From Zygnema cylindricum (taxonomy: Eukaryota; Streptophyta; Zygnematophyceae; Zygnematales; Zygnemataceae): a stretch of DNA of 64,000 bases. A program made the translations under genes and the position numbers. Shown one piece after another: positions 5,339 to 37,406 of the stretch. The stretch's first letter is position 1. Each line of letters opens with the position of its first letter. The notes under the pieces were generated by a model, which was given only the letters and a program-made list of their open reading frames with translations, ran no database searches and had not been told where the DNA came from. The stretch is from contig JBBHKE010002279.1 in assembly GCA_037447655.1 (NCBI GenBank), positions 1 through 64,000 on the forward strand, in the 5' to 3' direction.

Positions 5339-5352
5339 CTCCCCTTATTTTC
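5339..5352 (-). other. Polypurine tract of copia A2
   Basis: Read with the element, the bases just inside the 3' LTR are GAAAATAAGGGGAG, the usual purine run that primes plus-strand DNA synthesis. The same run, AATAAGGGGAG or close to it, stands at this place in A+, A3b and, with changes, A3a and A5. Confidence 0.85.
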
Positions 5353-8300
5353 TAGTCTATCTTTTCTTTCAGTCCACACTTCTCCCTAGAAAATTTTAAT
5401 TTGGGAGAAGGAACCGGCTTAGTCATCATATCTGCTACCATCTCTCCATCCGGTCTATATTCCAAACTAATTATTTTATTCTCAACCTTCTCTCTAACAT
5501 AGCTCAAACGAATATCCGTATGCTTTGCTTTAAAGTGATGTTTTGGGTTTGCTGCAATTGCAATCGCAGCTTGATTGTCACAAAATACTTTTTGCACTCC
5601 GCTCTTCATATATCCTAATTCTTGAAGCAAAGATTTTACCCACATCAATTCTTTCAAAGCCGAACAAGAGGCCATATACTCAGCCTCCATGGTGGACTAA
5701 ACAATCACCTTTTGTTGTTACTGCTCCAACAGCAAGCCCCATTCCCAACATACAACACATACCCAGAAGTACACCTCCTCATCGGAGCATCCCCATAACT
5801 AGAATCACTCCAAGTGGTGATGTTAGTATTATCCCCTCCCAAATGCAACCATAGATCTCTCGTTCCTATCAAGTATCGCATGACCCTTTTGGCCGCTTCT
5901 TAATCATTCTTCCTAGGATCATTCAGACTCCTACTTAATACTCCCACAGCTACAGCTATATCAGGACGAGTACAGTTCATAAAGTAGATCAAACTACCGA
6001 CAACCTGTCTGTACGGAATAGTTTGCATGAACTTGCTTTCCTCAGGTCCTAGCTCATTACCTAGAATCAAGACTCCCTCTTCTAAGCTCTCCTCATTTCC
6101 CTTCTTTAAGTCCATTGGAGTCGTACAACTATTTGCTTTTTCCATTTGAAATTTTTCAAGCATATTCCTAGTTGCTTCCTTTTGAGTTAGTCTAATTGTT
6201 TTCTTTTCTCTATCTTTCTCCGTTTGAATTTCCAAGATGTACTTTGCCTCTCCCAAATCTTTCATTTCAAATCTACCTTTTAGATCCTTTTTCAATCTAT
6301 TAATTTTCTCCATTGATTTACTCAAAACAAACAAATCATCAACATGTATGGCAATGAAAATTATACCTTCCTCGTCCTCAAATAATTAGATAGAATGATC
6401 ACAACTGATTCGAATATATCCCAAACTCGTGAAAAACTTGTCCAATTTTTTTTTCCATTGGCGTGGAGCTTGCTTTAGTCCATAGAGGGACTTTATCAAT
6501 CTGCACACCTTGCTTTCTTCTCATTTCTCCACAAATCCTTTCGCTTGTCGCATGAAGATCTCTTCTTCCAATTCTCCGTGTAAGAAAGCGGTTTTGATAT
6601 CCATCTGGTGCACTTCCATGTCTTCCGCTGCCGTGAGACTAAGCAAAATCCGGACGGTGGGGAATCTAACAACCGAAGCAAAAGTCTCCTCATATTTGAT
6701 CCCCTCCTCTTGTGTGAACCCCTTTGCCACTAATCTGGCCTTGGATCGCTCGATAGTATTATCTGGGTTGAGCTTTAACTTAAATACCCACTTGCATCCT
6801 ATCGGCTTTATATCTGGAGGACAATCCACCAACTTCCATGTGTTTGCTTCCATAATGGAAGCCATCTCATCATTAATAGCTGTCACCCATCTATCACCTT
6901 TCGGACTATTAACTGCTTCCGAGTAATTTTGTGGTCCGCTCAAATGTGACAGCTTAGTAACCTTGTTGTTCACTTGTCTCTCTCGAAGTCTCTTACTGCT
7001 TCTCCTTCCTCCTTCAAACTCCGACGCTGGGATAGAGGGTAATCTTGGGTTTCTCCAAATAACTTCACCTTCTCTCCTATCTGTGGAGTCCATCTCCAAA
7101 CATTCATCGTCCATTCCTGGTCTTTCCTCGTTTTCTTCTTTGGTTTGAACAGGATGTTGTGGCTCCAAGAGAGAGTCACTCTCGGTCAGTTTTTCCTCTT
7201 CTTCTGCAAAGTCAGGCTGAACCGGAGTTTGATTAGAAGAATCTGAATGTAACTCATTTTCGGATTCAATTCTAATCCTCACCAATTTGGTGTACTTAAA
7301 GGGATCTATGGACTTTCCCTCATCTATAACTACCAAGTGTTTTACTAGAATTATGTCTTCTCTTCCGAGATCATAAACTCTATATCCCTTAACATTTTCA
7401 TCATACCCAAGTAAGTATCCCGACTTTCCTCTAGCATCTAACTTCCAATCAGATTTTTCTGTGTTTAGACTAAACACTTGACTTCCAAACACCTTTAAGT
7501 GTGAAATATTAGGTTTTCTTCCGGTCCATCTTTCATAAGGTGTTTGGCCTTTTATAGCCGAGGTAAGTACTCTATTTTTGAGATAGTTAGCACAATTGAT
7601 AGCTTCTGCCCAAAAGCTTTTCCTTATCTTTTTATCCGTCAACATACTACGCGCACTATCACTTAATGTCCGATTTAGTCTCTCGACTACACCATTTTGT
7701 TCTGGATTCTTTGGAACAGTCTTTTGGTGTTGAAACCCTTCCTCTTTCAAATAATCCTCAAACTCATTAGAAGTGAATTCCCCCCCATTATCACTCCTCT
7801 CTCTTTTTATAGGTGTCTCATGGAGCTTTTCACTCCATGCTTTATACACTTTAAAATAAGCCTAAGCCTCAGATTTGTTTTTCAAGAAATATACTCTAGA
7901 GTATCTAGACCAATCATTCGTGATAGTAAGCATAAATCTTTTCCCTCCAACTGATGGCACTTTGGCCGGTCCCAATATGTCAATATGAACCAAGTCTAAA
8001 ACCTTTTCACCCTTATATGTTACGACCTTTGGAAACAGCAACCTGTGGGCTTTTCCTTGTGCACACCCTCTACAATCATCCAAAGTCTCATTATCCCCAA
8101 AATGTATTCCCTCAACTACAGCCATTTTCTTCATTTCTTTAAATCTATCTAGATGCACATGTCCCAATCTTTTATGCCACATCATCCAATCACTTACAGC
8201 AACATAGTAAACACCCGTCTTTCCATTACTCAAATTCAGCCTAAACATTCCTTGGCTACCCTTTTCAGCTGTGAAGTACACTTCATTCTCATAGCTAGCA

Positions 8301-9736
8301 ACAAAGACTCCTTTCTTAGTACTAGTCTCAAAGCCCTTATCATCTATGAACGACGTAAAGATAAGATTTTGGTTCAACTCCGGAATAAAAAGAACATCAG
8401 AGAAAGTGACTATGGATGTCTTTCCATCAACTAGGACCCTCAGATTTACTGATCCCACTAAATTAGTGGTCACTATCCTCCCATCCCCATACCCTATCTC
8501 TACAGTAGGGATCTTTCTCATTTTGAAAAACAATGGTTTTTCTCTACGCATATGCATAGAGGCTCTTGAATCAATGATCCATCCTTCTTCAAGAGCTTCT
8601 TTCACTCCACCAAAAGCACACTTTTGCCTCCTTGGAATATTCGGCTCACCTTTCACCTCCAACTCCTCATTGAGAAGAAGTTCTCCATCGTCATCATCAA
8701 CATCCTCTTCCACGACTTGTGTTGCAATGAACGCCTTCTTTTTCCTTCCGCCTGGTTTTCCAATCGATTCCTCCTTCAATCTCAACTCCGTCAACTTAGT
8801 GCACTCCACCATGTAGTGTCTCGACTTCTTACAAAAATGGGAAAGCCCCTTCGGAGCCCTTGGAGGAGATCCGTCATGGTTTCCTCTTCCTCCTCCACCA
8901 AAGTTCCCATAAGGTTTCTAAGAATCCTTATCCCCCCAGTCAGTACCAGTAGCCAATGCTTGAACCCTCTTTCCTCCCCTACGAATCTCAATTGTGCTTT
9001 CCCTAACCAAAATCATCCCCACAACAAAATTCCAGATCGAAAGATGATATAACAAATCCTGGACCCTGTTAACAATGTTCTCATAAACATTTGGGAGTTT
9101 CATAAGCAAAGTGTTCACCTTCTCTTTCTCAGTCTCCCTTTTCCTTGCACTTTCTAACTCCATGAATAACCCAGCCAAATCATTAAAAAAATCTAACATC
9201 TTTCCCCGTTTTTACACATATCCTTGTACCTTCTAATCTGCCAGCTTCTGCTACTGAATCGTACTCCTCTTGTAAATGTCCACAAGAGCTTCCCACAACT
9301 CGTCTGCCCTCTCCACATGAAGATGAGGTGTAGCCACTCGCTGAGTGAGACGCCTAAGAATAAAATAAGTTGCCACGGTATTGTTGAAATCCCAGATTTT
9401 AGTATCATTCGCCTCTGTTTTTTGAACTGGTGCTACAGGAGCCGATCCACTAGCCATTGGTGTGATTTTCTCCTTCCCTTTGTCTGACATGGTGCTTTTT
9501 GCAACATCCTCCACCCCCTCTGCCCCTGCACATCCTCCAGTGAATTGAGATCCTCCAAACCCTGGTGGAACACCTAATTTAGCGGATGGCCGACGCACAC
9601 GGCCACTCACAATGTCCCCTAGCCGGTTTTCAAACAATACACCCCTCATCATGCTTTCCCAATAAATGAACCCTGTTCCATTAAAAATGGGCACCCTAGA
9701 GGGTGGGCCCAAAACCTTTAATTTCGTGACCTCCAT
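5352..9736 (-). pseudogene. Copia A2 gag-pol polyprotein (broken)
   Basis: This single gag-pol frame contains, in order, Gag (start codon 9736-9734, inside the 5' LTR), a zinc knuckle near 8805-8846, a retropepsin region, GAG-pre-integrase with an HKRLGHVH-type motif, integrase core and C-terminal regions, RT and RNase H. The longest open parts are 7862-8812 and 6521-7849, separated by a single in-frame stop. Inactivating changes are visible: the knuckle reads SHFC with its first Cys lost; the protease motif reads DSRAS rather than DSGAS; the RT box reads HVDD (6335-6346) rather than YVDD. The RNase H end (5352-5690) keeps MEAEYMASC and DNQAAIAI motifs. Family assignment is certain; activity is excluded. 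Confidence 0.93.
9703..9716 (-). promoter_or_regulatory. Primer-binding site of copia A2 (half-tRNA type)
   Basis: Read on the minus strand, GGTTTTGGGCCCAC follows the LTR directly. It differs by one base from GGTTATGGGCCCAC, the complement of the initiator tRNA-Met anticodon stem-loop. It is also coding (Gag residues around VLGP). Confidence 0.85.
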
Positions 9737-10812
9737 TGGTACACAGAATGTCCAATTTATGTGAAGCCTCTTGGATAGTATATGCACTTTTGACTTTGAC
9801 AATGAATTATTCCCACCCTGGGACGAAAAAACTCTGACTGACTATACCCGTGTGTAGCGTGGACTCCCCTGAGTCCGCTGCAAAAAGAATCAGTGAATTT
9901 TCTCACCTGAGCATTAAGTTATGGCTGTTCAAACACAACATATTTGTATAGATGGCCTCTGAGAGAGAGAGGACTTTTCAATATTTTTCTAAGTCCTGAA
10001 AAACTCCTAATAGCTATTCTAAACCAATCAAAATAGAGTACCCTAACTATCGTACATATAAAGTACAGAAGCCGCTGTACTTTATGTACGGATATATTCG
10101 GCACCACTCTCGGTCTACCACGTGGCAAATACGTCAATGATATTCTGTCCCTTTTCTCTTCCGGAAACCAATAGGATGATGCGACGTGTCATTTCCTCCC
10201 TTTTTGCCGAACTGCTCCCAGATAGTAGTTCCGACATACCGTCACTCATACGTGCCGTCCGTTCTTTTTACGATGATCGATTTCAGCCGTTGGATCTAAC
10301 GGCGCGCCGAATAAATGTTGACCGTTGAATTTCACCGGTCAAAGTTCCGTTTTGACCGTTGAATTTCGATGGTCAACATTCCGTGTTTCGCTTTGCAAGC
10401 CGTCGATCACGACATTTAATTTCGTCCGTCGAAATTAAATGTGTGTTTCATTAATTTCGTGCGGTACTGGATTTCGTGCGGTACCACACGTTCCATGTTG
10501 CGTTTCGTTTCGTAGGATGTCAAATGGAATATGCCGTAGATACAACTTTAAATAAAGATCAAATACAGTTCATGCAACGATTCATCAAGACCTGAAGGAT
10601 AAGGCGGGCGCCAAGTCCGTACGGCTATTGTCCGGAGGTTACAAGATCAAGTCATGTCTGTGGCAACATTACTTTTGCAGGAGCTTAATCTTCTGCCTAT
10701 CTCCTCATCTGTCTTAAGCAGACATGGCTGCCTGTTGATTCTCAGTGACTACGACAAGTATGAGAACTGCAAGACCCACAAAGGATAGAACATAAAATAT
10801 CATTTTTCAACA
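9717..10812 (-). repeat. 5' LTR of copia A2
   Basis: 1096-bp LTR paired with 4222-5338, with the same promoter-region hairpin near 10052-10089. It ends at the second ACCTC. The Gag ATG lies in its last 20 bases. Confidence 0.9.
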
Positions 10813-10817
10813 ACCTC

Positions 10818-11300
10818 GCGGGAAGCTTTACCTGATTTAATATCATGTGCCAAAGCTGTCTTGAAGTTTGTTGGACACTTTCCATTTCAGTCGAAGAAAT
10901 TTATTCAAAGCCATCTTACCCAAACTTACGGTCTCAAATTTACCTTTGACCAGGCCGCCCAATACGCGGTAGAATACGAAATGACAAATTGTTGGTGGGA
11001 AGCTCAGGATCGACCAAAAGCTCCCGAAAAAGAACCAAATCTTTTAAAATCCACCAAATGCTAGTAACTTAGGGCCCAATAATCGGCCTTGAAGGGTTCT
11101 TGCCATGGGAACTCCACCAAATCAACCATCCAATCGCATTTGTTTTTTATGTGGCAAGACTAAGCACGATGCTCGGATGTGTCCGAATAAATCTGCGACC
11201 TATACACACTGCAAACTGATTGGCTATTTTGTACATCATTGTCACATCAAAAACCCGAAATTTTCATATAAAAATCAGATATGAAATGGCGAAACACCGA
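10818..11300 (+). pseudogene. Gypsy C gag, C-terminal part with CCHC knuckle
   Basis: This gag part continues after the copia A2 insertion. An open stretch of about 80 codons (10818-11063) ends in a stop. It is followed by a CCHC zinc knuckle at 11141-11182 (C-x2-C-x4-H-x4-C, CFLCGKTKHDARMC). A second knuckle-like motif follows but reads THCKLIG...HHC with the first Cys replaced, so it is probably dead. Knuckles of this type bind the element RNA during particle assembly. Together with 3429-4221 it makes the gag gene of the element. Confidence 0.8.
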
Positions 11301-12480
11301 CTGGATCCGCCAAACCAGTCCAATCAGTGAAAGAAACAGAAAAAGATTCGCCACCTAAAGTGTCGCGGAGAGAAAGAGAGAGGGAGGAAATGCAAACTCA
11401 AATGGTCGCCATGATCATAGTCCGGTTTGCAGCCCTTATATCTTAAATGAAACTGCCTACTCAGCTAAGTTGTATGGCCGGTACAATTGTCCACCATCCC
11501 ACATTAGCTGGTTGGGTTTTACAAGATTCAACCATTTAAAAATGGGCAATCACGTTTGCTATTGGCACCGTTGATCACAATCGAGACGGTAAACAGTCTA
11601 GCACGCGTCTTCCATTATCATTTTCCAAAGAGACCGTAACTAATTTGCCCGAAACAGCTTTCACCATAACGACAAAAACACTGACTATTCTTGACCGCTC
11701 TATCAAGACAATCATACGATTAAAGAAAGATTGTGCATTTTTTCCACTTTGATATCCGACTCTCCCAACCATAAAATCTACCGTCTCACCCATTTCATTC
11801 GCAACATTACAAGCGTTGCAAATGAACCGTAATTTGGAAGCTCTTAGGCCTATCTCTGCCAAAAAGCGTGGTTCACTCGCCCCACGCATCAGTTTTTTGG
11901 ATAATGGGAAGGGTGCATTTTTAGTCAATGGTGTCACACCGTCATTACCACTTTTGGACGCTGGTGCAAAACCAATTATTTTGGGGTCATCTTTTGCACT
12001 AAAACTGCTCTGACAGCTGATAAACTTCAGTCCACCACCAAATGTTTAATCACCTCAGCAGGAACTACCGAACTAGTTTTGGGCATTACAAAGGATCCAC
12101 TTTGTTTTAGGTTTCAAACCGGTACATAATCTGATTTTGTGGAAGTCCGTGCTCACGCATTGGTCACCAAATGAAGTGATTACGAGTGTTTAGTGGGGCA
12201 AGATGTGATTTTTAGGCGGTGTTGACATGTAGGATCAGACATTTTCATAGAGTCCAACCAATTATCCGGAAAAGAAAATCTGCCTTTATCTAATTTGAGC
12301 ACGACAACCCATACCCGTTATGGCTCACGGAACCCAATTTGTCCCTGCTTATTCCAGAAATTCTGTGGGATTTGAAATTTTCCATTATCTATCCGGAGAG
12401 GAAATTATACTTGAGAGTCCCTCTTTGCCGCAACTTTTGGATAATCCAGGTTTTATTATTGATTCTCGCTAGTTTGATCA
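11301..12480 (+). pseudogene. Gypsy C retropepsin-like protease region (broken)
   Basis: A frame at 11816-12013 contains LLDAGAKPIILG, the shape of the retropepsin active site (LLDTGAxxxxIG) with Thr replaced by Ala. Downstream, near 12180-12215, a CLVGQDVIF phrase matches the second conserved block of gypsy proteases. Many stops follow. The protease would have cut the Gag-Pol polyprotein. It lies between gag and the methyltransferase. The stretch 11301-11560 has no clear domain. Confidence 0.7.
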
Positions 12481-13074
12481 TATATACAAAACACACACTT
12501 CAAATTCCTTTATCATAAGTTCCACCTCCTCCTCTTATTTCGGTAGATTTTTCTGGTTTCCTTCCCATCTATTGGAAACGAATTCAGCTCAACCCTCTTC
12601 AAGATGGTCTTGTCATTTTAGATCTATTCGCACGCATAGGTATCTCTAAGCTATCTCGCCTTCGAAACGGATTACTCATCAAGCACTACTACTTAGTCGA
12701 CACTTACCCTTTTGCTCCGAAAGCCCACACACATCACTGTAATCTTTTACACGAACAATATCCACATCTTTTTCCCAAATCCACCTTTGACCACATGCAT
12801 ATAGCCTTACACTTAGATTTTCGTTTGATAAGCAATCACCACATTCTTGATGTGGAACCAATCGATCTTCTCTTTGCCGGTTGGGAGTGTCACGAATGTC
12901 ACGAGCAGGCAAGGGTCTTGGCTTCGTCTTTGAATTACTTCATATCATGCATTTTCTTCAATCATTCGATCGACCATTAGGATATATTTTGGATAACGTG
13001 GCAGCCTATAACGATCCTCGACCTACATTGTTAGTTGATTACAAGCGGATAGAAGCATTATTTTGTCCTCCTCT
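12481..13074 (+). pseudogene. Gypsy C C5 cytosine DNA methyltransferase, N-terminal half
   Basis: From about 12560 the frame carries C5 cytosine methyltransferase motifs. Motif I (AdoMet binding) is DLFARIG at 12621-12641. The motif IV region reads GWEC, with the presumed catalytic Cys codon at 12888-12890 and Glu in the usual Pro place. A one-base loss follows directly, shifting to the frame that reads MSRAGKGLGF. Motif VI is LDNV at 12989-13000. A short block usually present between motif IV and the following helix seems deleted. The domain stops at 13074 because copia A+ is inserted; it continues in frame at 19458. It would transfer methyl groups to cytosine in DNA. Position between protease and RT shows it belongs to the retroelement, not to a host gene. 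Confidence 0.85.
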
Positions 13075-14121
13075 AGTAGAAATTGATGGTTCTTTCATTA
13101 TTTTCTAGGTCTAAATTGAAATACAGAAAGAAGATGAGGCAGTCTGCCTCTAACTTCTCTCTCCAACTCCCACACTTGTTGCAGTCATTGAGAAGTTGGA
13201 GAGGAAGTTAGAGCCATGGCTACCTAGGCTATCCAGAGGTTTACGGGAAATAGATTAGTTGATTCACGGATAGGTAGTTTATTTAAGAAAAGGGATGATG
13301 TCTGATCCAGGATTTGATCTTGGTACCTGCCATTTGTAGACCGCTGGTAGCCGATAGACTTATCCATTAAGTTTATGACTAGTGTTACATGCTATAAGGT
13401 TTGATATTTATTTAACTGTTACCACGTAGGAAAATTCATTTAACGAAAATTTTTTACAGTATACATAGATCCAGTTATGTAAAGTATGAATTACGGTATG
13501 GATAAGAAACGAGCACTGCGCATTTGTTTGTTTAACGAGACAAATACCGCAAAAGTATTTATGACGGATACGATAGAAATTTGCATTCAATTGGACGACC
13601 GGGAAGAAAGCCGAGATCGCGGAAGAGAATCTTGGCGGTTTGTAGTCATCGCCACATTGGATGTCACGTGGCACGAATACGCTGGATCGCGTCATCTCCT
13701 GGGATTACGCGTTCAAATCCGGATATGACATGTGTCAACATTTAGGCCATGTTGTACAATATCCGTACAAAAAGTAAACCGGTTGCTGTACTTTTGTGTA
13801 CGGCAGTGTAATATGTCAGTAGATAGAGTTTAAGAGAGAGATAGGACTTAGAAAAATTTGGTAGATAGGACCTCTCTCAGAGAGCTTCTTTACAAAAGGT
13901 CAACTTTGACCCTCCATAACTTACTGCTCAGGGGAGCAAATTCAAATATTCTTTTTGCTATCTACCCGAGGGAGTCTTGCCTTCACATTGAAGAAGGTGG
14001 TCATAGCTTTTGTCTGCCAAGGTGGCAAATAATCTTGCTTAAACACAAAGTGTTCAGGGTTATCCTAGAGGCTTCTTGCAAGCAGTCCATTCTAAGGACC
14101 TATGGAGGTCTCAGAGTTGTA
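13075..14121 (+). repeat. 5' LTR of copia A+
   Basis: 1047-bp LTR paired with 18389-19452. It contains an antisense tRNA-like block: 13307-13323 read on the minus strand gives CCAAGATCAAATCCTGG, a 5-bp stem (one weak pair) with a 7-base loop, and a TTAATGGATAAG phrase about 45 bases before it. The Gag ATG is at 14102-14104. Confidence 0.92.
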
Positions 14122-17100
14122 GGTTATACGCCCACCCTCTAGGGTACCCATCTTTAACGGAACTGGCTTCATATATTGGGAAAATATGATAATAGGAGCT
14201 CTATGCAAGGAAAGGTTTTAGGGGATAGTGAGTGGACGAGTGGGGCATCCATCAAGTCTTCGAATCCCTCCAAGATTTGGAAGAAGTAGATTCACAAGGA
14301 AAGCTGATCCATCTTCAACGGAGGAGACAAAGGAATGACAGGTGGTGGACAAAGGAACGGAGAAGGAGACGACCACACCAATAGCAAGTGGTTCCGAATT
14401 CATGTCACCTATTTTGAGGAACATGGGCTTACATGTCCTGATTTGCAAGTAGAAAGGGCATCCCATCTTTCGATGGCTCTCATAAAGTGTACCGAAGTGA
14501 TACGATTGAGCAACAACAGTTGGCTGATCTGAAAGTTAAGAAGAATGTATACAAAGGGGGGAAGATGTTTGATTTTTGCAACAAGCGTGCTACACTTTTC
14601 ATGGTGCTTGAGAGTGCTGGAAAAGATTTTAGTGAAAAAGAAAAGGTTAACTGTTTACTGATGAAGTTACTCGATGAGTTCGAGAACATAGTCAACCGTG
14701 TTCAGGACTTGCCTGACTCAAGGTGGATATGGAACTCAGTGGTAGGAATGATTCTTGTTTGGGAGAATACGATTGAGATCCGAACGGGAGGAAAGAGTGG
14801 GCAAGCCTTAGCAGCCGAGAGCGATTGGAGGAACAAGGATTCCCGGAGACCGGTCGGAAATTACAAAAGGTGGGAGCACAAAAAGCAGACCAACGAGTTC
14901 GGACCAAGGGCTACCAAGGGTTTATGTCATTTGTGTAACAAAACAAGGGCACTATATGGCGGAGTGCACTAAGCTAACCGAGCTTCGGTTAAAAGAGGGG
15001 CAGACTGGTGGAACCGCGAGAGGAAAGAAAAATGCCCTTGTGACACAGGTACATGAGGTGGAATTTGAAGACAAGGACGATAATCTCTTATTGGATGAGG
15101 AGTTGGAAGCGACAAACGAGGTAGAAATTCCACAAAAGCAGAAATGTGCTTTCGGTGGATTGAAAGGTGAAACAGGCTAGATTGTGGATTCAGGTGCCTC
15201 CATGCACATGTGTAAGGATAAACACCTGTTCACTAAGATAAGAAAGATTCCCACCGTAGAGATAGAGTACGGGGATGGGAGGATAGTCACTACTACTCTT
15301 GTAGGATCGGTGGATCTGAAAGTGTTAGTAGAAAGAAAAGACATTCATAGTTGCATTCTTCGATGTGTTGTTTATTCCGGAGCTGAACAAAAACTTCATC
15401 TCTACGACTGTATTAGATGATAAGGGTTTTGATACTAGCAACAGGAAAGGAGTCTTCACTTTTAGTTTTGAGTAGGAAGTCTATTTCATTGTTGAAAAAG
15501 GTAGCCAAGGGATGTTTAGGCTGGTTTAAAGCAATGAAAAGAAGAAACTTTATTATACTGGTGTTCATGATATAATGATGTGGCATAAGAGGCTTGGGCA
15601 TGTGAATCTAGATAAGCTAAGAGAGAAGAAAAGATGGGAGTGGTTGAAGGGATTCAGTTTAGTGAGAGTGAGAATCTAGGTGATTGTAGTGGATGTGCTC
15701 AAGGTAAAGCACACATATAACCCTTTCCCAAAACAACCACCTTTAAGGGAGAAAAAATTATAGATTAAGTACACACAAATATTTGGGGACCGGCCAAAGT
15801 GCCGTCAACAGGAGGGAAGAGATTTATGATGACGATCACTGATGATTGGTCTCGGTATTCCAAGGTGAATATTTTGAAAAACAAGTCAGAAACTCAGGAT
15901 TGTTTTAGACAATATAAAGCATGGAGGGAAAAACTCCATGAAACTCCAATCAAGAGAGTAAAAAGTGACAATGGTGGAGAGTATACTTCTAACAAGTTTG
16001 AGGATTTTCTGGGGGAAGATGGAGTCCAACACCAAAAGAGAGTTCCAGAAAACCGGGAACATAATGGGGTAGCTGAAAGATTAAAGAGGACACTAAGTGA
16101 TAGTGCTAGAAGTATGTTGTCGGATAAGAAGATAGGAAAAAGAGTTTGGGCAAAGCAATGAACTGTGCTAATAACCTCAAAAATAGAGTTCTTACTTATA
16201 CTATAAAAGACAAAACACTTTATGAGAGATGGACCATGAGGAAACCAGACATATCTCACTTAAAGGTTTTCGGCAGTGAATTATTCAGTCTAGATATAGA
16301 TTGGTCTAATTGAAAGCTAGTCCTTAAAAGAAACCGGGATACTTATTAGGATATGATGAGGATGTTTAAGTATATAGAGTTTATGATCTAAAAAAGGACA
16401 ATATAATCTTAGTAAAGCATCTAATAGTTATGGATGAAGGAAAGTCTGTGGATCTCTTCAAGTCAGTAAAAATCAGATTTGAGTCAGAAAATTCTGATGA
16501 CTTTGAAATTCCTAACTATCCAGGTTTTAGAGAAGATGACATTCTTGCAAGTACAAATCAGACCGAAAAGGACTCGGCTGTGGAAACTCCAGTGACAACT
16601 CTACCCGAAGCGGAAGACGTGGTGGAAATTGATTCGGAATCAAGGGATAGGGGAGAAGCCGAGATTGTTCGAAAGAACCCACAAGAACCATCTATTCCGG
16701 CAACAAATTTTGAAGGGGGAAGGAGAAGTAGCAAAATATTGCAAGAAAAACAGGTTAATAACAAGGCAACAAAACTATCTCATCAAGATTAACCTCAAAC
16801 TTAAAGAGAGGCGATGACTTGTCCAGAAAGGAGCCGGTGGAAGATAGCCATCAATGAGGAGATGACTTGAATTATGGCAGCCGAACTTGGGAGCTGGTGG
16901 ATTGTCCACCTAACCGAAAACCAATTGGTTGTAAGTGGGTTTTCAAATTCAAACTGAACCCGGATAACACCATTGAGCGTTACAAAGCCGGATTAGTGGC
17001 AAAAGGATTTACACAGAAAGAGGGAATCATCTACGAGGAAACCTTTACCCCGGTTGTCAGATTTCCCTCCATCCGCATACTTCTCACTCTGGCAAAAGCA

Positions 17101-18375
17101 AAAGACATGGAGGTGCACCAGATGGACATAAAGACAGACTTTTTGCATGGAGAATTGGAAGAGGAGATCTTCATGCGACAACACCAAGGATTTGTGGAAG
17201 AAGGAGAGGAGAGTTAGGTATGCCAGCTGATTAAATCTCTTAATGGTTTGAAACTAGAGCCCAGACAATGGAATAAGAAGCTTGATGAGTTTCTTATCGG
17301 TCTAGGATATATCCGGATCATCTCTGATCACTCAATCTATATTTTTGAAGATGACAAAGGTGTTATATTTATTGCAATTTATGTTGATGATTTGCTTGTT
17401 TTAAGTAAAACAATGGAAAATATTAATAAACTGAAAATCGGTCTTAAGGGGAGATTTGAAATGAAAGATATGGGGAAAGCAAAATATATTTTGGGAATTC
17501 AAGTAGATAGGGACTGAGAAAGAAAGATTATAAGATAGAGTCAAAAGGAAGCAATAGGGAACATGCTAGAAAAATTCCACATGGATAAAGTTAATAGTTG
17601 TACAACTCCAATGGAGCTAAAGAAAAAAAGTGAGGGGAGTGAGTAAAAAGGAGTCATAGTCTTAGACCAAGAATTAAGTCATGAAGAACAGAAGTTCATG
17701 CAGACTATTCCTTACATGCAAGTAATGGGAAGCCTAATCTATTTTATGGATTGTACCCGAACGGATTTAGCTGCAGCTGTAGGAGTGTTGAGTAGAAGCC
17801 TAAATGCTCCAACTAACAAGGATTGGGAGGCAATTAAGAGAGTCCTTAGATATTTGATAAGAACTAGGGATCTATGGTTGCATTTGGGTGGGGTAAATAC
17901 TGACATCACTACTTGGAGTGATGCCAGTTATGGTGATGCTCCGATAAGGAGATGTACTACTGGATATGTATTATATGTGGGTGACGGGGCTTGCTGTTTT
18001 AGTAGCAAACAGCAAAAGGTTATTGCTCAGTCCACCATGGAGGCTAAGTATATGGCCTCTTGCTCTGCTATAAAAGAATTGATGTGGGTCAAGTCTTTGC
18101 TTGGTGAGCTTGGTCACCTTAAGAGTTGTGCGCAAAAACAATTTTGTGATAATCAGGCAGCAATCGCTTTTTCTGCCAATCCTAAACATCATTTTAAAGC
18201 CAAACACATGGACATTAGACTCAACTTTGTTATAGAGAAAGTAGAAAACAAAATAATCAATTTAGAGTACCGACCACATAGCGAGATGGTAGCAGATGTG
18301 ATGACCAAACCAATGCCTTCCCCTAAGCTAATTTTCTGCAAGGAGAAGTGTGGTCAGGAATTAAATATTGACTAG
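14102..18375 (+). pseudogene. Copia A+ gag-pol polyprotein (broken)
   Basis: Gag starts inside the LTR and hits a stop at the seventh codon. A one-base change near 14940 disrupts the zinc knuckle. The retropepsin motif VDSGASMHMC is kept (about 15184) but preceded by a Trp-to-stop change. The integrase region (15799-16161) keeps DDWSRYS and SDNGGEY motifs. RT (16867-17517) keeps YVDD at 17380-17391. RNase H (17698-18375) is the longest open part, 225 codons. At least a dozen stops and shifts break the frame. The family is clear; the copy is dead. Confidence 0.93.
14122..14135 (+). promoter_or_regulatory. Primer-binding site of copia A+ (degenerate)
   Basis: GGTTATACGCCCAC, two changes from the initiator tRNA-Met anticodon complement seen intact in A3 and B. 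It directly follows the LTR. Confidence 0.75.
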
Positions 18376-18380
18376 AAAAT

Positions 18381-18388
18381 AAGGGGAG
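18381..18388 (+). other. Polypurine tract of copia A+
   Basis: AAGGGGAG directly before the 3' LTR, the plus-strand primer site. Confidence 0.85.
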
Positions 18389-19452
18389 TGTAGAAATCAA
18401 TGGTTTTTTTAGTATTATCTAGGTCTAAATTGAAATACCGAAAGTAGTTGAGGCAGTCTGCCTCTAACCTCTCTCTCCAACTCCCACACTTGTTGCAGTC
18501 ACTGAGAAGGTTGAGAGGAAGCTAGAGCCATGGCTACCTAGGCTATCCAGAGGTTTAGGAGAAATAGAGTAGTTGATTCATGGATAGGTAGTTTATTTAC
18601 TAAAAGGGATGATGTTGGATCCAAGATTTGATCCTGGTACCTGTCGTCCGTAGACCGCCAGTAGCCGGTAGACTTATGCATTAAGTCTAAGACTAATGTT
18701 ACATGCCATAGGGTTCGATATTTATTTAACTATTACCACGTAGGATAATTCATTTAACGAAAATTATTTACAGAAATACATAGATCGTGTTATATAAATG
18801 ACGGATTACGGTATGGATATGAAACGAGTACCGCGCATTTGTTTCTTTAACGATACAAATACAGCGCAAGTATTTATTATGGCTACAATTGAAATTTGCA
18901 TTCAATCGGACGGCTGGGAAGAAAGCCGAGATTGCGGAAGAGAATCTCAGTGGTTTGTAGTCATCTCCATATCGGATGACACGTGGCACGATTACGTTGT
19001 ATCGCACCATCTCCGAGGATTACGGGACCGAATCAGGATATGACATGTGTCGACATTTAGGCCATGTCATACAGTATCCGTACATAAAGTACACCGGCAG
19101 TTGTACTTTTGTGTACGACAATGTAATATGCTTGGTGCCGCACATCAGTAGATAGAGTTTTAGAGAGAGATAGGACTTAGAAAAATTTGGAAGATAGGAC
19201 CCTCTCTCTTAGAGAGCTTCTGTACAAAAGGTCAACTTTGACTCTCCATAACTTTCTACTCAGGGGAGCAAATTCAGAGATTCTTTTTGCTATCGTCTCA
19301 GGGGGGTCTTGCCTTCACAAAGATGAAGGTGGTCAAATTTTTCTGTGCGAGGGTGGCAATTATTCTTGCTGAAAAGCAAAGGGGTCAAGGTTATCTTAGA
19401 GGCTTCTTGCAAGCTGTCCATTGTGAGGACCTATGGAGGTCTCAGAGTTCCA
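18389..19452 (+). repeat. 3' LTR of copia A+
   Basis: 1064-bp LTR beginning TGTAGAAATC and ending CAGAGTTCCA, followed by CCTCT. Like the 5' LTR it carries the promoter-region inverted repeat near 19079-19118 and the antisense tRNA-like block. Its last bases contain the Gag ATG. Confidence 0.93.
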
Positions 19453-19457
19453 CCTCT

Positions 19458-19990
19458 TATCATTGATGTCGCTCCTTACGGGTCCTTAGCCCATAGGGTG
19501 TGATCTAAATGGACCAAGTTGATTGATATCGGTTGGCTTAGAGAAGGAAATCTTTTGCCTGACCCCCCTTTATTAATATTCAAATGACACTCTTTTCTTT
19601 CAATAAAGTTCAAACATATCTTTAGCCTGATCACCAGTCGAATTACAACATAAACGTCTCGCGTCAACGACTCAAAGTTCTCCCCACTCTAGTGGCTTAT
19701 CCGCACTCTTACGCTTTCTCCGGCGATGGGCCGCACTGCTTAGAAATATTCACATAGGGGGCATTGATGAGCCTATAGCCAAAGAATGAGAACACCTTAT
19801 GCATTTCCAACCCAACACTACAGCTGTCCAGGATCTCACAAAACGGCAGTGCCTCATCTTTTTAGGTCATGTCATGGACCCTCAATCTCTCTCATTTTTT
19901 TTAGGCCTCAGGATTTGCAGCAAGTCGTTACGCACAGACCCATCCGTCTTTGCCAGCTAAGGGGGGGAGAATACATCATCAATTTCTAAA
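19458..19990 (+). pseudogene. Gypsy C C5 cytosine DNA methyltransferase, C-terminal half
   Basis: This is the second half of the methyltransferase, in the same frame as 13074 when copia A+ and one CCTCT are removed. It opens with a block ending GSLAHRV, at the place of the conserved Gln/Ser-x-Arg-x-Arg motif, then a TGA (19501-19503) where an Arg codon CGA would fit, then SKWTKL. Further on are a PHSYAF block (near 19700) and LGHVMDP at 19862-19882, which suits motif X, the last part of the AdoMet pocket. Two or more frameshifts lie between them. The region ends shortly after and passes into a linker before the RT. Domain identity rests on the motif order over both halves. Confidence 0.8.
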
Positions 19991-20396
19991 CACATACCTA
20001 CACGATCCGTTATCACCCATAAAGGGATAACTTCTCAGTCTTTCCTCTTTTCCATCCCTTATAAAACCTTCTTCAGATGTCACAAATCTACGATTTCTTA
20101 TAATCCCAGTCATATGTGATGGTTCATTCCAGCCTATACTATTGCTCAATCAATTCCCTCTGGTCACATATCAACATCTTCTTATTAGACTGCAACCTTT
20201 CCCACTTGTAGCTGGCATCATCGGACAAATTGCTCAATCTACTCCCTCTAGTCACACATCAACATCTCTTCACTGGATCGCAACCTTTCCCACTAGTAGC
20301 TGGCATCATTAGGTAAATTGTTTACACTAGACACTTGTCAATTACTCTTTAGGTCAAACGCTCATCGCAAATGAACAACAGGCTTTTGCACACGCC
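19991..20396 (+). other. Gypsy C linker between methyltransferase and RT
   Basis: No domain was recognised. It holds a tandem duplication of 88 bp (20141-20228 and 20229-20316, about 85% alike by eye). Because 88 is not a multiple of three, the duplication shifts the frame. Confidence 0.7.
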
Positions 20397-21356
20397 ATGG
20401 AAGCGATAACAATTAATAGTTCGGAAACTCCTAAATGGAAATTTGGGGCTAATCTCTCTAAATTTGAACATGATTTACTGAACGAAGTAATTCTCTGGAA
20501 CATCAACGCATTCACTTTATCCATAAACGATCTTGGTCGACATAGAACCTATAAATTGTTTATAGATCTCGAAGACGATCGTCTCATTTTCAAACCAAAA
20601 CACCACTTATCTGAAATGGAATGGGAATTAGTGGATCAAGGTTGCGCTGAATTGGAGGAAGTTGGCCTCATTTACCATGCAGATTCGACTTGCGCAGCAC
20701 CCACAATCATGCCTCGTAAAAATGATGCCAAGGGAAATTTTACCGATCGTCGAATGTGCCGCGATTACCGTGAACTCAATTCCAGAACTATACAAGACCG
20801 ACATCCGATGCCATTGGTCGAGGAAATATTTAATCATGTAGGAGGCGCTAAATATTTCAATATTATTGATTTACGACAAGGTTTAAACTAGATTGAAATA
20901 GAGGAGAAAGATAGGCATAAAACCGCTTTTTGGGGTAGTGATGGTCGTTGGGAATGGTCTGTGATGCCTTTTGGACTTAAGAACGCCCGCGCAGTTTTTC
21001 AAAAAGTAATGGATTTAGTTGTAGGTGGATGCAAGTTTGCATGATGTTATATCGATGACTTGATTATCGCTTCTCCCACAATTGATGATCATGCAGCTCA
21101 TATCGAATGGGTCCTAACTGAATTGAAGAAGGTCGTATTAAAATGTCATCCAACTAAATGGACTTTCGGGTCCGAGGGTGTGCCTTACCTTAGACATTTC
21201 ATTTCCTCCAAGGGAATCACAACAATTGAAGCAAAAACTGAGGCTATTTACAAACTGCCAACCCCCGTTGATCTCACAAGTCTTCGAGCCTTCCTGGGAT
21301 TAGCTAATTACTATCGCAGATTTGTCCCTAGTTTCAGCACTGTCATTTACCAGTAA
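20397..21356 (+). pseudogene. Gypsy C reverse transcriptase (broken)
   Basis: Ty3/gypsy RT. An open stretch 20397-20891 carries MCRDYRELN and the FNIIDL block typical of gypsy RT fingers and palm, then a stop. The MPFGLKNA block follows near 20960, and the catalytic YIDD lies at 21048-21059, preceded by an in-frame TGA. The next open stretch (to 21356) contains the LRAFLGLANYYRRF connection block. It would copy element RNA into DNA. It follows the methyltransferase and precedes RNase H, the normal gypsy order. Confidence 0.93.
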
Positions 21357-22090
21357 ACGATATGCTAAAAAAAAAGGTCCTTTTCGTATGGGGACCTGAT
21401 CAGATTTTTGCAATTCAAAAGTTGAAAGATGCCCTCTCGAGTACTCCCATCCTACGACCTCCTAATCACAAATTACCTTTCTGCCTATAAACAAACTTTG
21501 GAAAGCTAGGCATTTTGGCCATCTTAACTCAAGGAGAACTAACATAAGAAGAATACGTGGTCGCTTACGCAAGCAGAAGTAATAATTGTGCGGAGTCGAA
21601 TTATAGTAGTTATGAAGGAAAATATCAGGCGTCAGTTTGCGGTATTGTACACTTTCGTCACTACCTTTACGGAAAACCGTTTACCCTTCTAACCGACCAT
21701 CAGCCCTTACATTTGCTGATGACAAACTATAAACTGTCAGGAAAATTACCGCGATGGGCATTAATATTACAAGAATACGATGTGGAAATAATTCACCGGC
21801 CAGGGTTACTTAGTCTGAATGCATACGACATTTCCCGAAATCCTTTGCCATGGACCACAGAAAACGGGGTCCGGCAAGACTTCGATGACGATGACGTAGC
21901 AACAATGTCAACAAGGTTTTATATCACACATTTTTTATCTTCGCTGCCCACATCCCGTTTTGCCCCAGACCGATGGCGGGACAAAGCACTAATTGTTTTC
22001 TTCTCCTCAAAAACTTTTCGACCCGACACTACATTCGAGGAGGAGGAAAGAATAAAGCAAAGAGCTAAAAATTATCTTTGGTTGGATCGC
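21357..22090 (+). pseudogene. Gypsy C RNase H (broken)
   Basis: The open part 21557-22093 shows the gypsy RNase H pattern: VAYASRS, then NYSSYEGK, then FTLLTDHQPLHLL, and the IIHRPG block that usually ends the domain. Before it, 21357-21556 has several stops in the N-terminal strand region. It would degrade the RNA of the RNA-DNA hybrid. Confidence 0.88.
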
Positions 22091-22514
22091 TAATACAATT
22101 GTTAGCAGACGGTAGTCATAGACACGTGCCTCGCCTGATTGAACGCCTTTCGCTAATTAAACAGATTACCACCGATCTAGGTCATTATGGAACCAAGGGC
22201 ACTTTAAGTCTGCTGCAAGCACACTATTGCTGGTCTGAGATGCAATCTCATTTCGCATCGATATTGCGTAAGTGTGCAATATGTGATTCTCTTCGCACTT
22301 CTTTTTTCAAATGGCAGACAACCCTCTAACCACTACCCATCAGAGGGTTATTTTACCGTTGGTCGTGCCATTTGGCAAGTCTCTTTCCCATATCTCTAAG
22401 GGGGAAACAATATATAACGATCATGATTGAAAATTTTAGCAAATGGGTTGAAGTAGTAGCATGACCAAACAAAATTGCAAAGCTCACCACAGTAGCTTTT
22501 AAAGAACATGTCCT
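22091..22514 (+). pseudogene. Gypsy C integrase, zinc-binding and first core part
   Basis: The region reads LGHYGTKGTLSLL then KCAICDS, the His and Cys pairs of the integrase HHCC domain (22170-22300). It is followed by the first core strand around ENFSKWVEV, where the catalytic Asp position appears to carry Glu. Copia A3 interrupts it at 22515; the core resumes at 36263. Stops are present. Confidence 0.85.
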
Positions 22515-23570
22515 TGAAACTCTGAGACCTACATAAGTCTTCAGAGTATACAGCTTCCAAGAAGCCTCTAGGATAACCTTGACCCCTTTGTGTTTCAGAA
22601 AAAATAACTGCCACCCTGACAAAAAATAACTCTGACCAACTTCACCCTTGTGAAGGCAAGACTCCCTTGAGTCGATAGCAAAAAGAATCTCTGAATTTGC
22701 TCCCCTGAATAGTAAGTTATAGAGGGTCAAAGTTGACCTTTTGTATAGAAGCTCTCTAGGAGAGAGGGTCCTATCTTCTAATTTTTCTAAGTCCTATCTC
22801 TCTCACAGACTCTATCTATTGATGTACAGAGCCAATCAGATTACAATTCCGTACATAAAAGTGCAGCTGCCGGTGTACTTTTTGTACCGACACTGTAGGA
22901 CATGGCCTAAATGTCGACACGTGGTATGTCCGGATTCGCTCCCTTAATACTTGGAGATGCTGCAATCCAATGTCATTTCGCCACTTGTCATTTGATGTGG
23001 CGATGACCACAAACCGTTGAAATCATCTTCCGCAATCTCGGCGTTAATTCCGGTCGTTCGATTAAATTTACATTTAATCGTAGCCGTAATAAATACATGC
23101 GCGGTATTCGTTTCACTAAAGAATTAAATGCATGGTATTGGTTTCTTATCCGTACTGGAATCCGTACTTTTACATTTACTGGATATATGTCTCTCGTAAG
23201 CAGTTTTAGTTAAATGAACTATTCTACGTATAAATGTTGAAATAATTATCAAACCCTATATTACTTAACACTACTTCTAGACTTAACGGCTAAGGCTAAC
23301 GGCTACCGCCAGTCTGCCAGCCGGTAGGTACCAGGATCAAATCCTGTGGCCGGCATATATCTTTTAGTAAATAAAACCCCTAACTAAAATATATTTTCCC
23401 GTAAACCTTGGATAGCCTAGGTAGCCATGGCTCTAGCTCCCTCTCCAATTTCTCAGTGACTGCGACAAGTTTGAGAAGTTGGAGAAAGAAGTTAGAGGTA
23501 GACTGCCTCGGCTTCTTTCTTATTTCTATTCAGACCTAGAAAATACTTTAAAAGACCATTAATTTCTACA
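22515..23570 (-). repeat. LTR 1 of A3 (3' LTR of A3a)
   Basis: 1056-bp LTR with TGAAACTCTG at its outer edge next to GTCCT and TTTCTACA at its inner edge. It is close to LTRs at 29794-30861 and 35202-36257. Confidence 0.92.
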
Positions 23571-26500
23571 CTCCCCATTTTTTCTAGTCAATCTTTAACT
23601 TCAGACCACACTTTTCCCTGCAAAAAATTAGCTTAGGGGAAGGCACAGGTTTGGTCATCATATCTGCTACCATCTCACTATCTGGTCGATACTCTAAACT
23701 GATTATTTTGTTTTCTACTTTCTCTCTAACAAAGCTGAGTCTAATGTCCATGTGTTTAGCTTTAAAATGATGTTTAGGATTGGCAGAAATAGCGATTGCT
23801 GCCTGATTATCACAAAAAAAATTCTGCACACCACTCTTAAGGTGACCAAGCTCACCAAACAAAGACTTGACCCACATCAATCCTTTTAGAGGAAAGCAAG
23901 AGGCCATATACTCAGCCTCCATGGTGGACAGAGCAATAATTTTTGCTGTTTGCTACTCCAACAGCAAGCCCCATCACCCACATATAATACATATCCTGAA
24001 GTGCATCTCCTCATTGGAGCATCACCATAACTGGCATCACTCCAAGTAGTGATGTCAGTATTCTCCCCACCCAAATGCAACCATAGATCCCTAGTTCCTA
24101 TCAAATATCTAACGACTCTCTCAGCTGCCTCCCAATCCCTCTTAGTGGGAGCATTTAGACATCTACTCAGCACTCCTACAGCTGCAGCTAAATCCGGCCG
24201 GGTACAATTTATATAATAGATTAGACTTCCCACTACTTGACTATAAGGAATAGTCTGCATGAACTTCTGTTCTTCAGCAGATAATTCCTCATCTAAGACT
24301 ATGACTCCTTCTTCCTCACTCCCCTCGCTTCCCTACTTCAACTCCATTGGAGTTGTACAACTATTAGCTTTATCCATTTGAAATTTTTCAAGCATGTTCC
24401 CTATTGCTTTTTTTTGGGTCAATCTTATAATTTTTCTATTTCGGCCTCTCTCTACTTGAATTCCCAAAATATATTTTGCTTCCCCCATATCTTTCATTTC
24501 AAATCTCCCCTTAAGATCGGTTTTCAGTTTATTAATTTTTTCCATTGATTTACTTAAGACACGCAAATCATCAACATAAATTGCATTAAATATAAAACTT
24601 TCCTCATCTTCAAAAACATAGATTGAGTGATCTGAGCTGATCTGAATATATCCCAGGCCGTTAACAAACTCATCAAGCTTCTTATTCCACTGTCGAGGCG
24701 CTTGTTTCAAACCATAAAGAGATTTAATCAGCCGGCATACCTTACTCTCCTCTCCTTCCTCCACAAACCCTTCGGGTTGTCGCATGAAGATCTCCTCTTC
24801 CAATTCTCCTTGCAAAAAGGCTGTCTTGATGTCCATCTGGTGCACTTCCATGTCTTCTGCTGCTACTAAACTGAGAAGTATGCGGACGGAGGGAAATCTG
24901 ACCACCGTGGCAAAGGTTTCCTCGTAGTCAATTCCCTCCTTTTGTGTAAATCCCTTTGTCACTAGTCGGGCCTTGTAGCGCTCAATTGTGTTATCTGGGT
25001 TTAGTTTTAATTTGAAAACCAACTTACAACCGATTAGTTTTCGGTTAGGTGGACAATCCACCAGCTCCTTAGTATCGGCTGCCATAATTGAGGCCATCTC
25101 CTCATTGATGGCTATCTTCCACCGGTTTCTTTCTGGACAAGTCATCGCCTCTCCATAAGTTTGAGGCTCATCTTGATGGGATAGTTTAGTTACCTTGTTA
25201 TGAACCTGTTTTTCTTGTAGTGTTTTGCTACTTCTCCTTCCCCCCTCAAAATCAGAGGCTGGAATAGATGGTTCTCGTGGATTCTTTCGAACAAACTCGG
25301 CTTCTCCCCTATCCCTTGATTCTGAATCAATTTCCACCACGTCTTCCGCTTCGGGTAGAGTTGTCACTCGAGTTTCCACAGCCGAGTCCTTTTCGTTCTG
25401 ATTTGTATCTGCAAGGATGTCATCTTCTCTAAAACCTGGATAGTTATGAAGCTCAAAGTCATCGGAATTTTCTGACTCAAATCTGACTTTTACTGACTTT
25501 GTATATTTGAAGGGATCCATAGACTTTCCTTCATCCATAACTACTAGATGCTTTACTAAGATTATATCTTCCTTTTTTAGATCATAAACTCTATATCCTT
25601 TAACATCCTCATCATATCCTAATAAGTATCCCGGTTTTCCTTTAGGATCTAGCTTCCAATTAGACCGATCTGTATCTAGACTGAATAATTAACTGCCGAA
25701 AACCTTTAAGTGAGATATGTCTGGTTTCCGGCCTGTCCATCTCTCATAAGGTGTTTGATCTTTAACTCTATTTTTGAGGTTATTAGCACAATTCATTGCT
25801 TCTGCCCAAAACCTTTTTCCTATCTTCTTATCTGACAACATATTTCTAGCACTATCACTTAGTCTTCTATTTAACCTTTCAGCTACCCCATTCTGTTCCA
25901 GGTTTTTTGGAACTGTCTTTTGGTGTTGGACCCCATCTTCCCTCAGAAAATCCTCAAACTGGTTAGAAGTATACTCTCCACCATTGTCACTCCTTATTCT
26001 CTTGATTGGAGTTTCATGGAGTTTTTCGCTCCATGCTTTATATTGTCTAAAACAATCCTGAGCTTCGTACTTGTTTTTCAAAAAATACACTCGGGAATAC
26101 TGAGACCAATCATCAGTGATAGTCATCATAAATCTCTTCCCCCCCCGGTGAGGGCACTTTAGCCGGTCCCCAAATATTTGTGTGTACTAGATCTAGAATT
26201 TTTTCTCCCTTATAGGTGGGTGTTTTAGGAAAGGGTAATCGGTGTGTTTTACCTTGAGCACATCCACTACAATCACTTTTATTATCATTCTCACTAAACT
26301 TAATCCCTTCCACCACTCCCATTCTTTTCATCTCTCTTAACTTGTCTAGATTCACCTGCCCAAGCCTCTTATGCCACATCATAATATCATGAACACCAGC
26401 ATAATAAAGTTTCTTCTTTTCATTACTTAAAACCAGCCTAAACATCCCATGGCTACCTTTCTCTGCAATGAAATAGACATCCTCCTCAAAACTAGCAGTA

Positions 26501-27928: not shown

Positions 27929-28259
27929 AAGTCCTCAGAGTGGACAGCTTCCAAGAAGCCTCTAGGATAACCCTGACCCCTTTGTGTTTCACAAAAAATA
28001 ACTGCCACCCTGACAAAAAAGAACTCTAACCAACTTCACCCTTGTAAAGGCAAGACTCCCCTGAGTCGATAGCAAAAAGAATCTCTGAATTTGCTCCCCT
28101 GAGCTGTAAGTTATGGAGGGTCAAAGTTGACCTTTTGTACAGAAGCTCTCTGGGAGAGAGGGTCCTATCTTCTAATGTTTCTAAGTCCTATCTCTCTCAC
28201 AGACTCTATCTATTGATGTACAGAGCCAATCAGATTACAGTTCCGTATATAAAAGTACA
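27909..28259 (-). repeat. Partial LTR (LTR 2) of A3a
   Basis: The first 351 bp of the LTR as seen on the plus map; identity to the other LTRs ends abruptly after AAAAGTACA in the promoter-region inverted repeat. The rest of this LTR is missing. Confidence 0.88.
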
Positions 28260-28930: not shown

Positions 28931-28975
<45 letters not shown>

Positions 28976-36257: not shown

Positions 36258-36262
36258 GTCCT

Positions 36263-37192: not shown

Positions 37193-37206
37193 TGGGGGGG
37201 GGGGGA
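37193..37206 (+). other. Poly-G run, probable polypurine tract of gypsy C
   Basis: A run of about 13 G followed by AA near the end of the interior, as expected for a plus-strand primer. It is followed not by the TG of block Y but by block X. Confidence 0.65.
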
Positions 37207-37406
37207 ATAAACTAAGCCTCCTAGCTTCCTCTCTCACCCTACCTTTATTTTTCTTGTGATACATATATTTGTTGCTTGCTGTTTGTAGAAATTGATTTCA
37301 TTTGTTTTCTAATAGGTTTATGACTTTCTTGCTTATTTCTTTATCATTTATCTTGCAACTGATTGTGTTGCACGTTTACCATATCCCTTGTCATATGCAC
37401 GACAAT
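37207..37406 (+). repeat. Block X, first copy, before the right LTR of gypsy C
   Basis: About 200 bp, from TAAACTAAGCCTCC to GCACGAC, repeated at 38571-38766. It stands between the poly-G run and block Y and is absent next to the left LTR block. Confidence 0.85.

Follow-up and report, generated by a model that had tools for sequence, protein, structure and literature searches.

Does a retrotransposon of the streptophyte Zygnema cylindricum (Zygnematophyceae) carry its own DNA cytosine methyltransferase, and what would it do with one? The question is raised by a stretch of 64,000 nucleotides (assembly GCA_037447655.1, contig JBBHKE010002279.1, positions 1 to 64,000 of the forward strand), which we refer to as "the window" and to which coordinates refer unless a contig or locus is named. 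A first-pass annotation, made from the sequence alone, had proposed that a C5 cytosine methyltransferase lies between the protease and the reverse transcriptase (RT) of a gypsy element, a position that can be read in the window and is also seen in other copies in the genome. From sequence comparison, we conclude with high confidence that the window holds a dead copy of a gypsy-type family whose Pol polyprotein carries a DNMT3-type methyltransferase, placed after the protease and before RT, and, downstream of the integrase, a PHD finger. The window copy is dead: its methyltransferase has a frameshift near 12,905, and stops interrupt the right half of the domain. Here, we describe the evidence for this reading, the repeat structure of the element, other explanations, and the relationship to known methyltransferase-carrying elements.

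A methyltransferase split by a nested insertion

The methyltransferase region of the window is divided by a nested copia insertion into a left and a right flank. The motifs on which the first-pass annotation was based are present where it had placed them: DLFARIG (12621-12641), the Cys codon of GWEC (12888-12890) and LDNV (12989-13000) on the left, and GSLAHRV (19480-19500, followed directly by TGA) and LGHVMDP (19862-19882) on the right, in the order claimed. With human DNMT3A as the query, two left-flank frames rank first and second among the 2,036 open reading frames (ORFs) of ≥20 aa in the window, with E values of 1.2 and 3.2. In a single-frame alignment of the left flank to DNMT3A, 4 of 1,000 dinucleotide shuffles score equally high; a frameshift-tolerant alignment gives a score of 63, and none of 1,000 shuffles attains it (mean 30.4, maximum 53). 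A frameshift-tolerant scan of 428 tiles across the window places two tiles that overlap the left flank at the top (63), with the next tile at 43. When an X is set at the frameshift, 27 of the 29 PDB matches of the left piece are DNMT3A/B/C, but with E values of 0.1 to 1.5. A single-sequence AlphaFold model of the window ORF (pLDDT 41) is of no use.

The two flanks align back to back in L013, a related copy of the same subfamily: the left piece is 82.4% identical to positions 2675-3282 of that locus and the right piece 80.7% identical to positions 3283-3814. Therefore, both flanks belong to one gene, a conclusion reached without joining the window's own halves. The 153-aa methyltransferase frame of the window was also compared with its own genome (352.8 Mb assembled into 2,689 contigs), where 150 of 961 candidates were scored, including the window itself, the weakest listed match having an E value of 3.3e-42. 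Recurrence of the domain in other copies, which the first-pass annotation had suggested as a test, is thus found at 149 other scored places (E ≤ 3.3e-42). On the strength of these genome-wide matches, we regard the identity of the window flanks as a C5 methyltransferase as settled. The second-ranked match, C584:235095-235553, has 99% protein identity to the decayed methyltransferase of the window, and would be a recent duplicate of the window region or an allelic contig.

Other copies in the same genome

A search of the same genome with the PF00145 profile scored 123 of 782 candidates, all 123 over the curated cut-off. They include at least one host-gene-like exon, and by our own count 85 of the 123 scored places have no stop in the matched stretch. 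Two sets of loci were fetched: 9.4 kb around the best 20 of the 123 PF00145 places, with flanking pieces for five of these loci, and 1.2 kb at 20 of the 150 window-frame places, selected for having no stop in the match. The counts of recurrence given here start from matches to the methyltransferase domain, not from all loci with the same RT. The domains fall into two families, A (that of the window) and B, one or the other being present in 19 of the 20 loci of the first set; the remaining locus is L015, which is the same place as L007.

In L023, a family A locus, a single open frame of 2,387 aa comprises PF00145 (E 2e-11), RVT_1, RNase H, H2C2, rve and PHD (E 1.5e-9) matches in this order, and upstream of PF00145 in the same frame are zinc knuckles (under the Pfam cut-off) and a protease motif (read by eye). 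The domain order of L014, L024 and L027 matches that of L023 over the stretches covered. Downstream of the methyltransferase in the 19 loci, RT is found in 15, integrase in 13 and PHD in 11 (in L026, the PHD is at odd spacing), and methyltransferase and RT share one open frame in L023, L024 and L014. The entire methyltransferase domain is open, and without an intron, in 16 of 39 family loci (9 of 24 in family A and 7 of 15 in family B).

The host-gene-like exon is at L007:1498-1797 (the L015 place). Its best PDB matches are 4fsx and kin (E 3.4e-29 to 3.7e-29), with the best DNMT1 of the animal kind at 1.2e-12; we take 4fsx to be maize chromomethylase (CMT), and the match points toward the green lineage. 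Around this exon, no chromodomain or BAH domain was found in L015 1-5400. CMTs are described as conserved in Viridiplantae in the part of PMC5410703 that we draw on.

Class of the domain, and two families

In a PDB search with a profile of 12 copies, 55 sequences match at E ≤ 0.01, of which the top 29 are all DNMT3A/B/C, with E values from 6.6e-20 to 8.1e-15, followed by M.HhaI (8.5e-8), further bacterial enzymes, DRM2 (2.9e-7) and DNMT2 (1.8e-6). A tree of nine retroelement domains and four known proteins places DNMT3A with the retroelements, separated from M.HhaI, DNMT2 and DNMT1 by a split with 100/98 support, subject to a warning of long branches. An AlphaFold model of the domain is weak (pLDDT 50) and, while its 50 listed Foldseek matches are all DNMT3, their TM-scores are <0.45, such that we give this comparison little weight. 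Based on profile and tree, with few references and long branches, we assign the domain to the DNMT3 class, with an unrearranged motif order (I-VI, then VIII-X). The PDB profile ranking and the tree rule out DRM or DNMT1/CMT as the origin of the retroelement domain.

Families A and B are identical at 133 of 316 positions (42%) in the methyltransferase domain and at 106 of 208 in RT. They differ at motif IV, which reads E-C in all 20 readable loci of the 24 in family A and P-C in 15/15 loci of family B. The Cys and the E-N of the ENV-type motif are kept in each of the 16 full-length open domains, and R-x-R in all except L029 and L040. Ratios of nonsynonymous to synonymous substitution rates (dN/dS) for the domain are 0.16-0.42 in family A (10 usable of 36 pairs; 25 saturated, 1 too close) and 0.11-0.37 in family B (13 usable of 21 pairs; 6 saturated, 2 identical). 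The one pair that is comparable with RT has a dN/dS of 0.08 for RT and 0.11 for the methyltransferase. We read these ratios as showing purifying selection on the methyltransferase domain.

Family B has a further peculiarity. In 11 of its 15 loci (L009, L010, L011, L014, L016, L020, L021, L022, L026, L027 and L028), an in-frame TAG followed by CAATTC stands directly 5' of the methyltransferase frame; no match to TAG-CAATTC was found in L017, L018, L019 and L025. In the family A locus L023, there is no stop at the corresponding place. The TAG is likely a site of programmed stop readthrough, with a context that we take to resemble readthrough of the tobacco mosaic virus (TMV) type. The 9.4-kb locus L020 has two methyltransferase stretches of family B, at ~2.6-3.8 kb and 6.3-7.2 kb as oriented, and its TAG-CAATTC precedes the second.

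Layout of the window element

The window contains a Ty3/gypsy-type element at ~1,134-38,767, split by three nested copia insertions. Its features, with the evidence for each, are as follows:

1134-38767, plus strand: whole gypsy-type element, including the nested copias, inside an older minus-strand copia (the flanking copia sequences, 1-1133 and from 38768 onward, match neighboring parts of another copia, ending at 6972 and starting at 6969)
1130-1133: left target duplication, TTCA (junction read)
1134-2297, plus strand: repeat A1, 5' end, beginning TC where A2 has TG (88.5% identity with 37409-38570, 1163 bp aligned; no downstream B found)
4222-10812, minus strand: foreign copia nested in the gag region (long terminal repeats [LTRs] 93.2% identical; duplication ACCTC at 4217-4221 and 10813-10817)
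11138-11242, plus strand: gag, two zinc knuckles (translation by eye; likewise in L023, where Pfam zf-CCHC is under the cut-off)
11915-12010, plus strand: protease, decayed, LLDAGA... (translation by eye; homologous protease in L012, L013, L023 and L024)
12558-13074, plus strand: DNMT3-like methyltransferase, motifs I-VI, frameshift near 12905 (DNMT3A ranking, frameshift-tolerant alignment, L013, genome matches)
13075-19452, plus strand: nested copia splitting the methyltransferase, not part of the element (LTRs 13076-14118 and 18390-19449, 85.9% identical; CCTCT at 13070-13074 and 19453-19457)
19458-19905, plus strand: methyltransferase continued, motifs VIII-X, with stops (80.7% to L013 3283-3814, directly after the left part)
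20742-21191, plus strand: reverse transcriptase (PF00078, RVT_1, E 1.3e-20)
21470-21778, plus strand: RNase H (PF17917, RT_RNaseH, E 7.2e-25)
22144-22287, plus strand: integrase zinc-binding domain, H2C2 (PF17921, E 5.1e-7)
22515-36257, minus strand: nest of foreign copias that interrupts the integrase core (LTR comparison and junctions; GTCCT at 22510-22514 and 36258-36262)
36276-36383, plus strand: integrase core, 3' part (PF00665, rve, E 0.013, under its cut-off)
37017-37145, plus strand: PHD finger, C-terminal end of Pol (PF00628, E 8.9e-10, over the cut-off; PDB PHD fingers, E 7.9e-14)
37194-37205, plus strand: tract of 12 G, polypurine-tract-like (G runs at the same place in 4/4 copies printed)
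37210-37404, plus strand: repeat B1 (89% identical to 38573-38767)
37407-38570, plus strand: repeat A2, beginning TGTC (repeat comparison, junction read)
38573-38767, plus strand: repeat B2, 3' end, GACA (repeat comparison, junction read)
38768-38771: right target duplication, TTCA (junction read)

The RVT_1, RT_RNaseH and H2C2 matches (E 1.3e-20, 7.2e-25 and 5.1e-7) occur in the order RT, RNase H, integrase that is typical of gypsy elements, confirming the element type originally proposed.

Several other features of the window are worth recording. The LTRs of the copia at 13075-19452 (85.9%) are more diverged than the A repeats (88.5%) of the older element that hosts it, a small mismatch that gene conversion or uneven decay could explain. 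The nest at 22515-36257, which also contains another stretch at 28260-29793, has a single GTCCT duplication flanking a pair of nearly identical internal regions and a broken LTR in the middle; it resembles a single insertion that was enlarged in tandem. An 88-bp tandem repeat (20141-20309, 1.9 copies) lies in the linker that separates methyltransferase from RT. Outside the element, positions 49845-56451 consist of three tandem units of 2,796 bp (97% alike where compared), which contain a gag-like frame with a single CCHC knuckle and are related to 43981-46800.

Repeats, ends and integration

The repeats of the window element are arranged as A at the 5' end and, after the run of 12 G, as B, A and B at the 3' end, i.e., A-coding-B-A-B. 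The G tract precedes B1, not A2, and the layout therefore differs from two like LTRs with a polypurine tract directly before the 3' LTR. The same B-A-B pattern is found at the 3' end in 7 of 19 loci, from both families, four of which were checked at the junctions. In the upstream pieces of five copies, A is present, whole or in part, in 4/5 and B in 0/5. Since one arrangement is common to several copies, it is not due to decay.

TTCA flanks the window element on both sides, and the homologous copia without an interruption has it a single time. The C1344 copy has A repeats that are 100% identical over 931 bp and B repeats that are 99.6% identical, its ends read TGTC...GACA, and TTGG stands on both sides; given its identical A repeats, this copy is probably recent. 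Thus, 4-bp target duplications (TTCA and TTGG) are seen in both copies for which two ends were read. The B-A junction is GACA-GC-TGTC in 4/4 copies printed, which include both families, and GACA-AT-TGTC in the window. No tyrosine recombinase was found at E ≤ 0.01 in the scanned frames of L023, L024, L014 and L027. The split direct repeats are arranged as in DIRS/PAT elements, and are combined with ends, target duplications and an integrase of the LTR/DDE type.

Possible roles of the enzyme

The methyltransferase may be packaged together with RT. It could then methylate the new double-stranded complementary DNA (cDNA), or chromatin at the landing place, such that the newcomer would be marked like resident DNA. 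By analogy with related elements, action on the element's own DNA or landing site would be the most likely role of the enzyme. The PHD finger on the integrase, judging from its fold family, might read histone H3 and thereby choose or hold the landing site. The integrated form could arise from circular DNA: cDNA with a B-A...B-A structure would be joined end to end and opened at GACA-GC-TGTC, giving A-coding-B-A-B.

A more ambitious scheme is possible, although we put it forward only tentatively and would not expect it to hold in full. A chromatin reader and a DNA methylation writer, paired as in animal DNMT3, may have been rebuilt in one retrotransposon polyprotein, with the PHD finger selecting chromatin through the H3 tail and the DNMT3-type domain methylating the incoming DNA or its surroundings. 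The DDE integrase would cut the circle at B-A, in a hybrid LTR/DIRS cycle, and the Glu-Cys site of family A would perhaps serve another substrate.

Alternative explanations

Several observations, told here with the explanations they might favor, weigh against the reading of the window as a dead copy of a methyltransferase-carrying gypsy-type family, or against methylation as the role of the domain. A search with Pfam (E ≤ 10) and NCBIfam found no methyltransferase family in the decayed window pieces, a silence that is due to decay; the PF00145 match that had been anticipated there is found instead in close relatives, with E values down to 4.1e-14. The right flank aligns to DNMT3A at the level of chance, with 694 of 1,000 shuffles as high in the single-frame and 869 of 1,000 in the frameshift-tolerant alignment, and the best PDB match of the left piece has an E value of 0.1. 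Taken alone, these results would suit chance motifs, or a gypsy element inserted into or beside a host methyltransferase gene. We consider the likelihood of this to be negligible: the domain recurs at the 149 other places, holds the same pre-RT position in 15/19 loci, shares one open frame with RT in L023, L024 and L014, and is open throughout and intronless in 16/39. Chance and host-gene capture are ruled out by open frames of the L023 type, the back-to-back alignment of L013 and the genome matches. A better case can be made that the domain persists but has ceased, in family A if not in both families, to be a DNA cytosine methyltransferase, having become a part of Pol that binds S-adenosylmethionine or nucleic acid, an RNA methyltransferase or an inactive scaffold; we regard this as doubtful, but as a possibility to be taken seriously. 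Motif IV of the window's family has Glu where family B has Pro (P-C), a replacement that could mean weaker or changed catalysis. CpG observed/expected ratios are 0.84-1.00 in the four pieces of the window element and 0.58-0.74 in the copias; two family A copies have ratios of 0.90 and 0.95, and two family B copies 0.65-0.66. CpG is thus undepleted in the window element, which therefore has no footprint of self-methylation. Conversely, the Cys and E-N of all 16 full domains, the near-constant R-x-R and purifying selection weigh against such a change. The selection estimates have their own limits: the usable pairs are few and share loci, two locus pairs are identical, and the choice of open-frame copies biases dN/dS toward low values.

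The structure of the ends and the benefit of the domain to the element can likewise be read in other ways. An ordinary LTR element could have lost B from its 5' LTR and gained an extra B at its 3' end; A2 and B2 together run TG...CA, as an LTR would, and target duplications are present. In C1407, moreover, no A was found in the 2.5 kb upstream, and in C82 a second B was not found downstream. This explanation is nonetheless very unlikely, given B-A-B at the 3' end in both families, the upstream pieces with A and never B, and a copy in which A1 and A2 are identical; the upstream and downstream reading of repeats in five copies rules out a decayed ordinary LTR element. Support for the PHD finger is weaker in family B, where those of L014 and L027 are under the Pfam cut-off (E 0.0044 and 0.0019). 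Lastly, the domain might serve the host, or be neutral baggage that spreads with the element. Gypsy-type families exist in many genomes without such a domain, which would fit either view. However, dN/dS is well below 1 in the usable pairs, and the domain has been retained in two families that are 42% identical there; we judge service to the host or baggage to be improbable.

Relationship to known elements

The KnitGypsy-Dnmt3 element of Klebsormidium nitens has gypsy domains, a Dnmt3 in Pol and DIRS-like repeats, according to the part of de Mendoza et al. (2018, PMC5890265) on which our comparison draws. By that description, the window element is a variant of the same kind: both have an unrearranged DNMT3-type domain in a gypsy Pol, DIRS-like repeats, purifying selection and no introns. 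They differ in that the Zygnema element has a PHD finger after the integrase, whereas the main text of PMC5890265 never mentions "PHD" (the figures and supplements of that paper are outside the comparison). Also distinct, in a comparison by description only, are the two families (EC and PC), the ≥149 matches beside the window, the target duplications and the family B TAG. The SymbioDIRS-Dnmt3 element, as presented in the same part of PMC5890265, likewise has a DNMT3-type domain in Pol and the A-coding-B-A-B arrangement, but has a tyrosine recombinase where the Zygnema element has a DDE-type integrase. The SymbioDIRS domain methylated CG in yeast, and de Mendoza et al. suggested, in those sections, that it acts on the element's own DNA or landing site. 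PAT, Kangaroo and Ngaro elements share the A1-B1-A2-B2 repeats, but have a tyrosine recombinase and no integrase in the account consulted (part of PMC4157794), in contrast to the H2C2/rve integrase and target duplications described here.

Among solved methyltransferases, animal DNMT3A/B are the closest, and they too combine a PHD-type reader and a writer in one protein. Animal DNMT3A/B have an ADD domain before the catalytic domain. By contrast, the retroelement domains form a separate clade (100/98), and their canonical PHD is at the far end of Pol. Plant DRM is also DNMT3 kin, but the domain order in the Zygnema elements is unrearranged, unlike that of DRM.

Previously known methyltransferase retroelements come from dinoflagellates and one charophyte, as the first-pass annotation noted and as the sections of PMC5890265 used here report. 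The portion of a 2025 survey considered here (PMC12344493) notes earlier reports, from streptophytes and dinoflagellates, of DNMT3 embedded in "LTR Copia and DIRS" retrotransposons. A partial literature search, with subscription papers outside its scope, recognized no further report of such elements. No relatives were found among phages, viral contigs or the protein database (proteins of ~470-1,490 aa), and a protein search with the RT piece gave one distant match, P0001 (E 4.2e-6), with PF00145 not among its listed Pfam domains.

Significance

The purpose of retroelements that carry a DNMT is open in the literature, and the many copies and two families in Z. cylindricum make it testable. It becomes possible to ask why a transposon carries an enzyme that is usually used to silence it, and how a DDE integrase uses split direct repeats. 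In these elements, the protein also has a domain of the histone-reader type, and the repeats combine LTR with DIRS features. A 2019 opinion paper describes methylase-coding transposons as absent from land plants (PMC6338049, in the part cited here), and the host of the elements described here bears on how far such transposons reach within the green lineage.

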